Shown: piece after piece, positions 32,223 to 36,713 of the stretch
Position numbering within the stretch: the stretch's first letter is position 1
Layout: each line of letters starts with the position of its first letter
DNA from: Pseudobdellovibrio sp.
Lineage (GTDB): Bacteria; Bdellovibrionota; Bdellovibrionia; Bdellovibrionales; Bdellovibrionaceae
NCBI GenBank assembly: GCA_023701385.1
Contig: JAMPXC010000030.1
Span: forward strand, 1-37,000
DNA: 37,000 bases
Direction of reading: 5' to 3'
Translations under genes and position numbers: made by a program
The notes under the pieces: model-generated
What the model saw: the letters and a program-made list of their open reading frames with translations, nothing else
The model's database searches: none
Told to the model about the DNA's origin: nothing

Positions 32223-33776
32223 ATGATTAATTGGAATGAGTTTGAACATATTCACGTGATCAAAAAATTAAAACACGTTCTCCAAGCATGGTGGAATGTT
32301 GATACAGTTTTTACTGATGAACGCGGACAAATCAAAGGTTTAGATGAAAAATTAACTTTTGCAAATCCTGCAGTTAATTATTTAATTCATAAAGATGCCA
32401 CCCAAGCAAGCCTTGCTGATTTAGTATCACAATCAATTAATGACTTACGCCAATCAAACAATGCTTTTGCTTTCAAAAAATGGGATGCAGCAGGTTTTGA
32501 TGTTTGCGTATTTCCAATCGTGATCGAAAACGATTTCGTAGGTACTGTTGTAGCAATGGGTTTCTTCAAAGAAGAAAATACAGCTCACAGAATTTCTGAA
32601 ATTCGCGATCGTTTAGCAGCTTACGGTTGTTCTGCTGAATTAATTGAAAAATCATTATCTAAATTCCAATACCTTGACGAAGTTAACCGTACTCACTTCA
32701 CTGAACTAGTTGAGTTAGTAGCGCAAGAGATCGTTACACTTCACGTTGAGATCGCTTCACGCGAATCAAAAATCAGCCAATTAAACTCTGAATTAGGTAA
32801 CCGTTTTAAATACGACAACATGATCGGTAAATCTAAACCGATGCAATCGTTATACGCTTTACTTGATAAAATTAAATTTGCTGATTCAACAGTAATGATT
32901 CAGGGTGAAAACGGTACTGGTAAAGAGTTAATTGCTAAATCAATTCACTACAACTCTAACCGTAAAGGTAACAGCTTTGTTATTCAAAACTGTTCAGCGT
33001 TCAATGACAACTTATTAGAATCAGAATTATTCGGTCACGTAAAAGGATCGTTCACTGGCGCTTTAAAAGACAAAAAAGGTCTTTTTGAAATCGCCGATAA
33101 AGGAACATTCTTCTTAGACGAGATCGGTGATACTTCACCACAAATGCAAGTAAAGCTTCTTCGCGTGTTGCAAGAAGGAACTTTTACTCCGGTAGGTTCT
33201 ACGGAGATGAAAAAAGTTGATGTGCGTATCGTTGCCGCTACGAACAGAAACTTACGTGAAATGGTTGAACAAGGCACATTCCGTGAAGACTTGTACTACC
33301 GTTTAAATGTTATCAATATTCGTGTTCCGCCATTACGTGAGCGTAAAGAAGATATTCCAGTATTAGTGGATTTTTTCTTAGGTAAAGTTGCTGAACAATC
33401 TGCTAAACCTAAAAAACAATTAATGGGTCGTGCCGTTGAAAAACTATATGACTACGCTTGGCCAGGTAACGTGCGTGAGCTACAAAATGAAATCGAAAGA
33501 TTATGCGTTTTAGCTGGCGACGAAGGCAAAGTTGGTCATGAAATTTTATCTCCGAAAATCTTAGAAATCGGCGAAAAAGCCAAAGTTCAAGGTTCTCGTT
33601 TACAAGGTAAACTAAAAGATGCTTTAGAAGATCTAGAGCGCGAAATGATCAAAGAAGGCTTACGCCGCACTGGTTGGAATAAGTCTAAATTAGCTAAAGA
33701 GCTTGGTATTTCACGTGCCGGTCTTATCATGAAAGTTGAAAAATACGGTCTTGATAAACGTAAAATTGCTCGCTAG
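32223..33776 (+). CDS. Sigma54-dependent transcriptional activator with N-terminal PocR-like sensory domain
   Basis: Bacterial enhancer-binding protein that hydrolyses ATP to open sigma54 promoters. 517 residues. Residues about 1-175 look like a PocR/GAF-type ligand-sensing module (no phospho-acceptor receiver), then a short coiled coil (IASRESKISQLNSEL). The AAA+ core has Walker A GENGTGKE (from residue 228), sigma54-contact loop GSFTGA (275-280, the known Ser variant of GAFTGA), Walker B FFLDEIGD (about 296-303), sensor I AATNRNLREM and arginine-finger region FREDLYYRLNV. A Fis-type helix-turn-helix closes the protein (about 470-512, NKSKLAKELGISRAGLI). The Shine-Dalgarno is AAGAGGTG. A clear terminator follows at 33827, so it is probably monocistronic. 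Confidence 0.92.
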   Translation: MINWNEFEHIHVIKKLKHVLQAWWNVDTVFTDERGQIKGLDEKLTFANPAVNYLIHKDATQASLADLVSQSINDLRQSNNAFAFKKWDAAGFDVCVFPIVIENDFVGTVVAMGFFKEENTAHRISEIRDRLAAYGCSAELIEKSLSKFQYLDEVNRTHFTELVELVAQEIVTLHVEIASRESKISQLNSELGNRFKYDNMIGKSKPMQSLYALLDKIKFADSTVMIQGENGTGKELIAKSIHYNSNRKGNSFVIQNCSAFNDNLLESELFGHVKGSFTGALKDKKGLFEIADKGTFFLDEIGDTSPQMQVKLLRVLQEGTFTPVGSTEMKKVDVRIVAATNRNLREMVEQGTFREDLYYRLNVINIRVPPLRERKEDIPVLVDFFLGKVAEQSAKPKKQLMGRAVEKLYDYAWPGNVRELQNEIERLCVLAGDEGKVGHEILSPKILEIGEKAKVQGSRLQGKLKDALEDLEREMIKEGLRRTGWNKSKLAKELGISRAGLIMKVEKYGLDKRKIAR

Positions 33777-33826: not shown

Positions 33827-33858
33827 AACCTGAGGCTTAAAAACCTCAGGTTTTTTTT
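33827..33858 (+). terminator. Rho-independent terminator of the sigma54 activator gene
   Basis: AACCTGAGG (33827-33835) and CCTCAGGTT (33844-33852) form a 9-bp stem with an 8-base loop, followed by a run of T to 33858. It isolates the activator gene from the downstream salvage genes. Confidence 0.92.
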
Positions 33859-33979: not shown

Positions 33980-33996
33980 CGGCACAAGACTTGTAT
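33980..33996 (+). promoter_or_regulatory. Candidate sigma54 (-24/-12) promoter upstream of the degenerate AAA+/amgK/murU genes
   Basis: The stretch reads CGGCACAAGACTTGTA. It keeps the invariant GG of the -24 element (33981-33982), CAC after it, and the TTG of the -12 element, with exactly ten bases between GG and the -12 dinucleotide. That dinucleotide is GT (33993-33994) instead of GC. Predicted start is about 34006, before the GGGGG ribosome-binding site. It lies 200 bases downstream of an enhancer-binding-protein gene. The same bases also form an ACAAG-A-CTTGT inverted repeat, so an operator is an alternative reading. Confidence 0.4.
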
Positions 33997-34028
33997 AGTT
34001 CCTATAACAGAACGCTATGGGGGTTTAT

Positions 34029-34868
34029 ATGATGAAGGACGTTGTTGAAAATGCAGTTTGGGCAAAAACACAAGCTTTAATCCAAGATAAATATGGAAAA
34101 AGAATTGCGTTTAAAACTATCGATTTAACGAATTCAGCTATGCCATCTTTTTTAGAAGGTGATGATCTGATCGTGCCGCTAAATACTAAACCCGTTTACT
34201 TAGGTGAAGTGATCGTTAACCGTGGTTCTTTATTATCAACGCAACAACGTGAAGAAGTGATTGATTTAATCCGCTTCTTAGTTGAACCACATGTTTACAA
34301 TAAACATTTAAAATTAAAAGAAGAAATCGAAGCTTACAAGCGCCAAATGGCCGCTGAAGCTGTAGAAAACGAAGATTCAAATGTTCTTTCTTTATTTAAT
34401 GATGAAGACACTGAAGAGCTTTCTTTAGTTAAATTAATTAATTCTGTGATTCATTTACGTTCAGCTAATGCCATGACTCGTAAAAAAGTGGCTTTAAAAA
34501 TCCATGATATGGCTGAACAAAATCTATTTGTTTCTTTCAGCGATATCGCCCGCCAAATGCATTCTGTTGAAGAATTTAAATCTTTTGATAAAACGACTGT
34601 GTTCGTTGAAGATATCAGCCAATTGAACGACCAAGAGTTAGGGTTACTTAACGCTGCTTGTGCTCTTAAAGTAGAAGGTCTAGTTTTTATTATCGGCAGC
34701 AACTTAGCTGATAAACAAATCGATGCGTTAAGTATGTCTCGCGAATTAAAAGCTGATATGAACGCGATTTTATTCGATATCGACCGTTTACCATTTGCGC
34801 AACAAACGAGTACTGACGTTTTAGAACTTCTGTTCTTTTCTAGTAGTAACTCGAACATACAAAACTAA
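34029..34868 (+). CDS. GAF-like plus degenerate AAA+ protein, probable inactive relative of sigma54 activators
   Basis: 279 residues from ATG 34029; the frame opens at ATG 34017, but GGGGG (34019-34023) serves 34029 or 34032. Residues about 25-90 look GAF-like (LIVPLNTKPVYLGEVIVNRG, then an amphipathic helix), followed by an acidic linker. From about 130 the order of blocks follows a sigma54-activator AAA+ core. TRKKVALKIHDMAEQ lies where GTGKELIAKSIH would be, TTVFVEDISQLNDQELGLL where GTFFLDEIGD...KLLRVL would be, and LVFIIGSNLADKQIDALS with AILFDIDRLPFAQ where VRIVAATNRNL...VPPLRER would be. Walker A glycines and the GAFTGA loop are missing, and there is no helix-turn-helix. It should not hydrolyse ATP or contact sigma54. 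A regulatory partner of the upstream activator is inference. Confidence 0.65.
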   Translation: MMKDVVENAVWAKTQALIQDKYGKRIAFKTIDLTNSAMPSFLEGDDLIVPLNTKPVYLGEVIVNRGSLLSTQQREEVIDLIRFLVEPHVYNKHLKLKEEIEAYKRQMAAEAVENEDSNVLSLFNDEDTEELSLVKLINSVIHLRSANAMTRKKVALKIHDMAEQNLFVSFSDIARQMHSVEEFKSFDKTTVFVEDISQLNDQELGLLNAACALKVEGLVFIIGSNLADKQIDALSMSRELKADMNAILFDIDRLPFAQQTSTDVLELLFFSSSNSNIQN

Positions 34869-34903: not shown

Positions 34904-35914
34904 ATGACCGCACAAATCGATCAGTTTCTAAAAGACTATTTTAAAAACTCTTTATACAAAGTTTACCAACTTGCGGGCGATGCTTCAGCCCGTAAGTATT
35001 ATCGTGTTATCTACGAACAAGACACTTACGTGTTAATGTCTTGGGAACCTTTCGATCCAGATAAATACCCCTTCATCAGTGTTCTTCGCCATTTTGAAGC
35101 TGCTGGCGTTAATGTTCCTAAAATTAAAAAAATCGGTGCCGAAGTTGGAATGCTTCTTTTAGAAGACTTAGGTGATTTAACTTTAGAAAGAAAATTCTGG
35201 GAATCAGCTAATCAAGAACTTTCATGGGATTTCTACCAAAAGTCTTTAGACGAAATTATTAAAATTCACACGACCGCGACAAAACTTGATAAACCGACAA
35301 TTGCCAAAGAAATCATGTTCGACACGGCTAAATTCTTATGGGAATTAAATTATGCCCGCGAACATCTCATTGAAGGTGTTTTAAAGTTTCAATTAAAAGA
35401 TAAAGTAGCTGCTGAGCTTCAAAAAACTTTTACTGATATCGCTGAACGTTTACATAGCGAACCTAAAGTTATCTGCCACCGCGATTATCACTCACGCAAT
35501 TTGATGATCAAGCTTGATCAAGTTTATGTGATTGATTTTCAGGATGCCCGCTTAGGACCAATTCAGTACGACTTAGTTAGCTTACTTAAAGATTCATACG
35601 TTGATATTAACGACGAATACGCAGAGAAAATGTTAAACTACTATTTCGACAACACTTCGTTCATGCAAGATCGCAATATGTCACGTGAGCAGTTTAACGT
35701 GATTTACGAATTACAATCGGTACAACGTTGTTTTAAAGCTTGCGGTAGCTTTGCAAGCTTTATGAACGCCCGTCAGGATCGCCGTTATTTAAAATACTTA
35801 AATGGCACTTTAAAACGCGTGATGAAATCACTTTCACAGTTTCCTGAGTATAAAGTTTTACTTGATGTCTTAATTGATGCCGGAGCGTTTGATAAAAACT
35901 ATGAGCGACTCTAA
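34904..35914 (+). CDS. amgK: MurNAc/GlcNAc anomeric kinase AmgK-like (aminoglycoside phosphotransferase fold)
   Basis: Phosphorylates the anomeric hydroxyl of N-acetylmuramate (and GlcNAc) in the MurNAc salvage route that bypasses de novo UDP-MurNAc synthesis. 336 residues, as in AmgK. It has the APH fold: GDASARKYYRV (nucleotide loop region), MLLLEDLGDLTLE, catalytic HRDYHSRNLM (H192, D194, N199) and metal-binding DFQDARLGPIQYDLVSLL (D211). AmgK family members share the DFQDA.YGP..YDL.SLL.D.Y pattern. The adjacent murU-like gene overlaps its 3' end, the same pairing as in Pseudomonas. The ATG has AAGGG directly adjacent, which is poorly spaced. It follows the degenerate AAA+ gene by 35 bases. 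Confidence 0.88.
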   Translation: MTAQIDQFLKDYFKNSLYKVYQLAGDASARKYYRVIYEQDTYVLMSWEPFDPDKYPFISVLRHFEAAGVNVPKIKKIGAEVGMLLLEDLGDLTLERKFWESANQELSWDFYQKSLDEIIKIHTTATKLDKPTIAKEIMFDTAKFLWELNYAREHLIEGVLKFQLKDKVAAELQKTFTDIAERLHSEPKVICHRDYHSRNLMIKLDQVYVIDFQDARLGPIQYDLVSLLKDSYVDINDEYAEKMLNYYFDNTSFMQDRNMSREQFNVIYELQSVQRCFKACGSFASFMNARQDRRYLKYLNGTLKRVMKSLSQFPEYKVLLDVLIDAGAFDKNYERL

Positions 35915-36713
35915 GGTTAATGTTCTTTTATTTGCCGCAGGTCTTGGAACCCGCTTAAGACCTGCCACTCTGGAAAATCCAAAACCTGTGATTCCCCTAT
36001 TTGGTATTCCGATGGGTTACTATTTGCTTCCGTATATTATTGAAATGCCTGTGGAAAAGTTTGTGGTAAACACATTTTACTTACCTGAAAAAATTCATGA
36101 ATGTTATGATCGCCTACGCCACGGTATCAAATTTTCTGATGAAAAGGATTTTATCAAAGGCAGTGGCGGTGGTTTAAAACAAGCCGAGCCTATTCTAGGA
36201 AACAAACTTCCGATTTTAGCTGGCAATGCTGACGAAGTCTTTTTCACAAGCGATTCACAGTTTTTAAAGCGTGCTTTAGAAAAGCATAATTCAGAAAACG
36301 CATTAGCCACTCTTATAGTAATGAATCACCCCGAAGCCGGCAAAAAATTCGGCGGTATCTGGACAGAATCACATAGTAGCACAAAAGTTATTTCGATCGG
36401 CAAAGAAACGCCGAATGAACAAGCGCGCCCTTGGCATTTTATTGGGCTTCAGATTTTATCACCTGAAGTTTTTTCGATGATTGAAACGGGAAAAGAATTA
36501 AATATTTTCTACGATGTATTAATTAATAAATTACCTTCACATAAAGTTCAGATTTTTCCGGTTGAAATGGACTGGTATGAACTGGGTAATTTAAATGATT
36601 ATCAAGAGGCTAAAAAAGAAATCGCCGCGCAAAAAGAATCAAATCCGGTTTATAAAAAACATTTCACTAAGCTGAATGCGTTACCGCAATCAAAGCTCAG
36701 TGATTTGGCCTAA
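35901..36713 (+). CDS. murU: MurNAc-1-phosphate uridylyltransferase MurU-like (nucleotidyltransferase)
   Basis: Transfers UMP to MurNAc-1-phosphate, giving UDP-MurNAc directly. The nucleotidyltransferase signature VLLFAAGLGTRLRP (8-21) with NPKPVIP is followed by GSGGGLKQAEPIL, the sugar/metal region NADEVFFTSD (normally GD.), FGGIW, WHFIGLQILSPEVF and DWYELGNLNDYQEAKK. 270 residues from ATG 35901 against about 223 in Pseudomonas MurU; a C-terminal extension accounts for part. The frame opens 27 bases earlier at TTG, but ATG 35901 places the Rossmann strand at the N-terminus and overlaps the amgK stop by 14 bases. It converges with anmK, overlapping 24 bases. Pairing with amgK supports MurU over a generic sugar uridylyltransferase. 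Confidence 0.85.
   Translation: MSDSKVNVLLFAAGLGTRLRPATLENPKPVIPLFGIPMGYYLLPYIIEMPVEKFVVNTFYLPEKIHECYDRLRHGIKFSDEKDFIKGSGGGLKQAEPILGNKLPILAGNADEVFFTSDSQFLKRALEKHNSENALATLIVMNHPEAGKKFGGIWTESHSSTKVISIGKETPNEQARPWHFIGLQILSPEVFSMIETGKELNIFYDVLINKLPSHKVQIFPVEMDWYELGNLNDYQEAKKEIAAQKESNPVYKKHFTKLNALPQSKLSDLA

Follow-up and report, generated by a model that had tools for sequence, protein, structure and literature searches.

We found that a gene of Pseudobdellovibrio sp., located at 34029..34868 (+) in the stretch of 37,000 nucleotides analysed here (the window), encodes a catalytically dead relative of the sigma54 activators. From the motif that precedes it and the genes that follow it, we conclude that this gene, here called X, is the first of a putative sigma54-dependent operon, X-amgK-murU, predicted to serve amino sugar salvage from peptidoglycan. 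In our preferred reading, to which we give a probability of about 0.4, the 279-residue product modulates, in an operon-specific and GAF-gated manner and probably as feedback, the sigma54 activator by which its own peptidoglycan-recycling operon is driven. Such a protein would probably tune its operon rather than switch genes on itself.

The block order of X, a GAF-like domain and then an AAA+ core, had been claimed by a sequence-only reading of this DNA and was borne out by structure prediction. The start codon was placed at the ATG at 34029, with a GGGGG run upstream at suitable spacing; an in-frame ATG at 34017 is an alternative. The full-length AF2 model had a pLDDT of 86, and so had a separate AF2 model of residues 1–118. 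The solved structures closest to the latter had VIA Z values of 6.7–8.9, which are moderate, yet nearly every row of the comparison was a GAF domain. The N-terminal domain is thus modelled as a GAF-type fold, and its helix at residues 71–115 resembles, in the prediction, the signalling helix downstream of GAF domains. Residues 1–115 (34029..34373), comprising domain and long helix, are the sole part retained in the shortest relatives of X. Residues 132–258 (34422..34802) form an AAA+ core that has no P-loop, GAFTGA loop or lid. When the AF2 model of this region was compared with solved structures, AAA+ cores were obtained, with MuB, FleQ, VpsR, DmpR, RuvB and FlrC at the top at Z ~10. Sigma54 activators (FleQ, VpsR, DmpR, FlrC and NtrC1; VpsR with structures 7v2b and 7v2v) were among the best matches at Z ~9–10, in line with the earlier view of the region from about residue 130.

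The X protein of the window had no Pfam matches, and PF14532 (Sigma54_activ_2) was matched by 35/60 members of the X family, with a best E of 9.4e-8. The Pfam families to which most of the 60 members had matches included no GAF family. Neither Pfam nor NCBIfam holds a model for X as a separate family, the recurrent match being to the general PF14532 only. Several activators of the same genome matched the X profile, the best at 1.4e-7 in this small set, and a PDB sequence search with the profile returned a DnaA-related protein only, at E 0.1. In hhalign, the X profile aligned with the narrow family profile of the neighbouring activator alone at 4% probability. Because the alignment behind that narrow profile was shallow (Neff 1.8), we judged the homology of X by Pfam and by fold comparison, and both place the core in the sigma54-activator AAA+ type.

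The catalytic parts of this core are gone throughout the family. At the aligned Walker A position GK was found in 0/60 members, and GxxxxGK occurred anywhere in 0/60; where an activator has its Walker A lysine, most members have N, R or I. The GAFTGA loop, searched for as GxFTG, was likewise seen in 0/60. Walker B reads hhhE(D/N) rather than hhhDE, that is, D is changed to E and E to D or N, while neither the sensor-I Asn nor the R-finger region is conserved, both being variable. Counted from the Walker A lysine site up to the leading acid of Walker B, X has 43 residues where the neighbouring activator has 65; the difference of 22 agrees with the shortening of about 20 residues noticed earlier. 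Neither lid nor HTH follows residue ~258, and the window protein stops just past the core. X therefore lacks the P-loop, GAFTGA loop, lid and HTH of a functional activator. The conserved residues of the family (K/R153, A155, H159, L199, D252, R253 and P255) lie outside the catalytic sites.

One relative has kept more of the ancestral architecture. A 414-residue member in another genome (L097, 4326-5570 (+) in G090) has the core, a lid (6e-8) and a Fis-type HTH (2e-6) and no P-loop; among the relatives scanned it was the only one with lid and HTH_8. This protein is possibly a DNA-binding dead activator, and its contig also carries an orthologue of the neighbouring activator ~6 kb upstream. Because L097 keeps lid and HTH without a P-loop, X is best seen as descended from a complete activator. 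Profile matches, fold and this intermediate together support the view, first put forward from the sequence alone, that X is a catalytically dead activator relative. A recent copying of X from the neighbouring activator was considered and dropped, since several other activators of the genome fit the X profile better.

That neighbour, at 32223..33776 (+) and here called EBP, is an intact sigma54 activator, as had been supposed. It consists of an N-terminal sensory region, an AAA+ core with the motifs GENGTGKE and GSFTGA, a lid and a Fis-type HTH, and in Pfam it matched Sigma54_activat (1.1e-69), the lid and HTH_8. The GSFTGA loop is its one deviation; among 20 orthologues this form was found in 18, GAFTGA in 1 and no match in 1. 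With a threshold of E<=1e-150, 124/141 genomes of the order have an orthologue. Compared with Bdellovibrio sp. qaytius (CP025734), the closest named relative, the EBP is 97% identical overall and 95% identical in its N-terminus, and its synonymous divergence of 0.52 lies below the 0.9–2.0 of neighbouring genes. The genome contains 13 other activator-like matches. Separate short activator relatives of 281–287 residues also exist elsewhere (L106, 4079-4924 (-); L107, 3890-4753 (+); and L108). L106 and L107 have an intact P-loop and no visible GAFTGA, and in L107 Pfam also identifies a lid and a Fis HTH.

Between the two genes we found a terminator and a promoter motif which, like the downstream operon, go beyond what had been noticed before. 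An intrinsic terminator at 33827..33858 (+), a stem-loop followed by a T run with a fold z-score of -4.28, marks the operon boundary between EBP and X. A -24/-12 sigma54-type promoter motif, GGCAC-N5-TTGTA, lies at 33981..33995 (+), 33 bases 5' of the X start codon; it is the single match in the window, where 0.05 were expected. The looser form GGYAY-N5-TTG occurred upstream of X in 36/49 loci, against a shuffle expectation of 0.35 (for the GGCAY form), and, with the sense strand searched, in 0/151 control regions upstream of the ABC, EBP, amgK and murU genes. Since this loose motif is not rare per se (6 matches in the window versus 3.1 expected), the weight of the evidence rests on its conserved position. 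In many members, the window included, the -12 element is TTGT, not TTGC. RpoN is encoded in the genome.

Downstream of X lie genes for an AmgK-like sugar kinase of the MurNAc/GlcNAc 1-kinase family (34904..35914 (+); NF045759 AmgK, E 1.9e-38) and a MurU-like nucleotidyltransferase (35901..36713 (+); NF045761 MurU, E 6.1e-21). These best NCBIfam matches are under the equivalog cut-offs (132 of 550 bits for AmgK and 75 of 250 bits for MurU), and we therefore name the products AmgK-like and MurU-like. The order EBP-X-amgK-murU is common to most families of the order, and wherever the three are linked X is always flanked by EBP and amgK; the conserved EBP-X pair anticipated by the earlier reading is thus real across an order. 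A conserved enhancer (UAS) between EBP and the promoter was not found, the motif search returning terminator-like sequence only. Because of this, and because of the 13 other activator-like matches, the EBP remains the putative driver of the operon.

X occurs once in its own genome. Within the family it was detected in 61/66 genomes at E<=0.01, two of these matches (G050, G030) being marginal, and within the order the 60-member profile found it in 118/141 genomes, which local search raised by 2 to 120. Beyond the order there were weak matches only, several of them in open reading frames as long as full activators. Compared with Bdellovibrio sp. qaytius, X is 82–83% identical, and its dN/dS is 0.13 versus 0.03–0.08 for neighbouring genes. 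X is therefore under purifying selection. It is very improbable that X is a functionless gene in decay: it is the fastest-changing of the compared genes (82% identity where the EBP has 97%), but most genomes of the order carry it as an open frame, its dN/dS has the value just given, its promoter is conserved and residues such as P255, H159 and K/R153 are maintained. An annotation accident or a pseudogene was rejected for the same open frame and dN/dS.

Loss has proceeded to different degrees among the relatives. The P-loop is missing in all members checked, the HTH in nearly all and the AAA+ core in some, and the GAF part is present in all forms. Four outgroup genomes (G138, G139, G140 and G272) carry in the same slot a GAF-only X of 134–143 residues (loci L102, L103, L131 and L134), so the AAA+ remnant is not required everywhere. 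The promoter motif precedes the GAF-only forms as well (L102, L131 and L134).

In order to relate X to its neighbours, we scored their co-occurrence in 141 genomes. X and the amgK orthologue were both present in 118 genomes, X alone in 2 (G096, G126), amgK alone in 0 and neither in 21 (Fisher 5e-23); here, 11 genomes with a distant kinase only were scored as without amgK orthologue, at a cut of ~E 1e-70 that was chosen after viewing the list. For X and EBP, both were present in 114 genomes, X alone in 6, EBP alone in 10 and neither in 11. The more complete genomes gave the same picture. Two genomes have two amgK-like copies each (G088:C198 and G088:C227; G135:C75 and G135:C76), and in G135 an X match lies beside each copy. 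In most families of the order the EBP adjoins X, with exceptions on different contigs (G001, G030, G073, G097, G106, G109, G127), and X remains beside amgK in genomes that carry the EBP at another site. These observations tie X to the amgK operon rather than to all EBP roles. Ten genomes, several of them small, keep the EBP and have neither X nor the amgK orthologue (G031, G041, G078, G092, G095, G113, G120, G123, G124, G125); if they are complete, the EBP has other targets there.

Linked genes vanish jointly, and co-occurrence is therefore no proof of function; it fits equally an accessory role for the enzymes. The main rival to our reading is that X acts at the enzyme level, as an accessory or regulatory subunit of AmgK/MurU in metabolic control; it would then touch no sigma54 activator, and its activator ancestry would be historical. 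The almost unbroken co-occurrence with the amgK orthologue, the position by amgK when the EBP relocates and the shrinkage to the GAF half in some genomes all speak for it. However, the fold is that of a sigma54 transcription regulator and a sigma54-type promoter precedes the operon; moreover, we know of no X-like subunit described for AmgK and MurU of Pseudomonas. On balance we regard the enzyme-level role as doubtful.

The earlier reading had suggested that X caps or poisons the hexamer of the neighbouring activator, as a dead subunit that enters the EBP ring and tunes or blocks it. An AAA+ core fold with neither P-loop nor GAFTGA fits this in part, and hetero-oligomeric activators such as HrpR/HrpS and FleQ/FleT are known (PMC4145663, PMC9542535, PMC7277832), but X has no lid and no conserved R-finger, its AAA+ part is missing from the four GAF-only loci, X tracks amgK over the EBP, and the EBP is kept without X in the ten genomes named above. 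Poisoning would possibly be limited to species with the AAA+ core and cannot be general, and we consider it unlikely as the role of X. The other half of the earlier functional guess, a ligand sensor that modulates the activator, appears the better one.

The partner itself may also be a different one. X could be a GAF-based sensor or adaptor on another activator or on an unrelated protein, with the adjoining EBP a historical neighbour. Consistent with this, several genomes have the EBP away from X and the promoter motif of X kept (L045, L090, L099, L121, L143), the EBP persists where X is absent, and the X profile fits the neighbour no better than it fits other EBPs of this genome. Against it stands the long-kept linkage, with the EBP beside X in most families, and we hold another partner to be improbable.

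Our preferred reading, the operon-specific modulator, would involve the following steps. X would have arisen from an ancestral sigma54 activator that ceased to bind ATP and DNA, gave up its contact with sigma54 and shed its lid; the GAF-type sensor would have been retained, and so would the AAA+ core in most species. The GAF domain may bind a small molecule of the pathway, and X would then modulate an intact activator, probably the EBP at 32223, at its own operon, most likely by negative feedback. Contact would be made by the dead AAA+ core or by the GAF domain and helix, docking onto the activator ring. Judging from known pathways, induction of the operon would in this way follow how much cell-wall material is on offer, which in predators would be fragments of the prey's wall. 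More tentatively, and with some doubt, we extend this to a class found across the order: dead activator relatives that would serve as operon-encoded, ligand-gated feedback regulators, the fold having turned into that of a co-activator or anti-activator which, bound to the active ring, matches cell-wall sugar salvage (in predators, from prey) to supply. If true, the X family shows an AAA+ activator converted to a regulator, with intermediates in living species: full length with HTH, truncated core, and GAF half alone. It would also offer a testable first handle on the control of cell-wall sugar salvage in predatory bacteria.

No paper in the open-access literature was recognised as describing X. 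To our knowledge, neither sigma54 control nor a GAF-AAA+ regulator has been described for the AmgK/MurU pathway of Pseudomonas, and the titles and abstracts found mention neither. The likeness to that pathway, which serves peptidoglycan recycling (PMC5371407, PMC5371409), lies in the AmgK-like and MurU-like genes downstream of X. The proposed topology of X has a precedent in FleQ and FleT of Rhodobacter sphaeroides, where FleQ and sigma54 drive an operon that includes fleT, and FleT then pairs with FleQ (PMC7277832); X, too, would be an activator relative encoded in an operon on which an activator acts with sigma54. FleT, however, is described as a sigma54 activator in its own right, acting together with FleQ on genes of the flagellum, whereas X, which has a GAF domain and neither P-loop nor GAFTGA, is encoded among recycling enzymes, and its pairing is putative. 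Similarly, in Azotobacter vinelandii VnfA1 interacts with the products of vnfZ-vnfA3, a sigma54 operon that it drives (PMC9542535). There, too, a sigma54-driven operon encodes a bEBP paralogue together with another regulator, but VnfA3 is a DNA-binding co-activator and X has no DNA-binding domain.

Activator relatives without GAFTGA are known in VpsR and TyrR, which keep their DNA-binding domain and act at promoters. They share with X a family AAA+ core without sigma54 contact, and X differs in having neither HTH nor lid. Most of the proteins known to control sigma54 activators are unrelated to the activator fold, and PspA and HrpV are not known to be AAA+ relatives. PspA acts in trans on the PspF ring (PMC3791423) and HrpV in trans on HrpS (PMC4145663), so that in each case a separate protein controls a sigma54 activator, as X may do. 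X shows the genetic linkage of a trans-acting bEBP regulator of the PspA, HrpV or FleN type. In contrast to PspA and HrpV, X is derived from the activator fold itself, and through a putative contact with its activator it would extend the range of trans-acting bEBP regulators.
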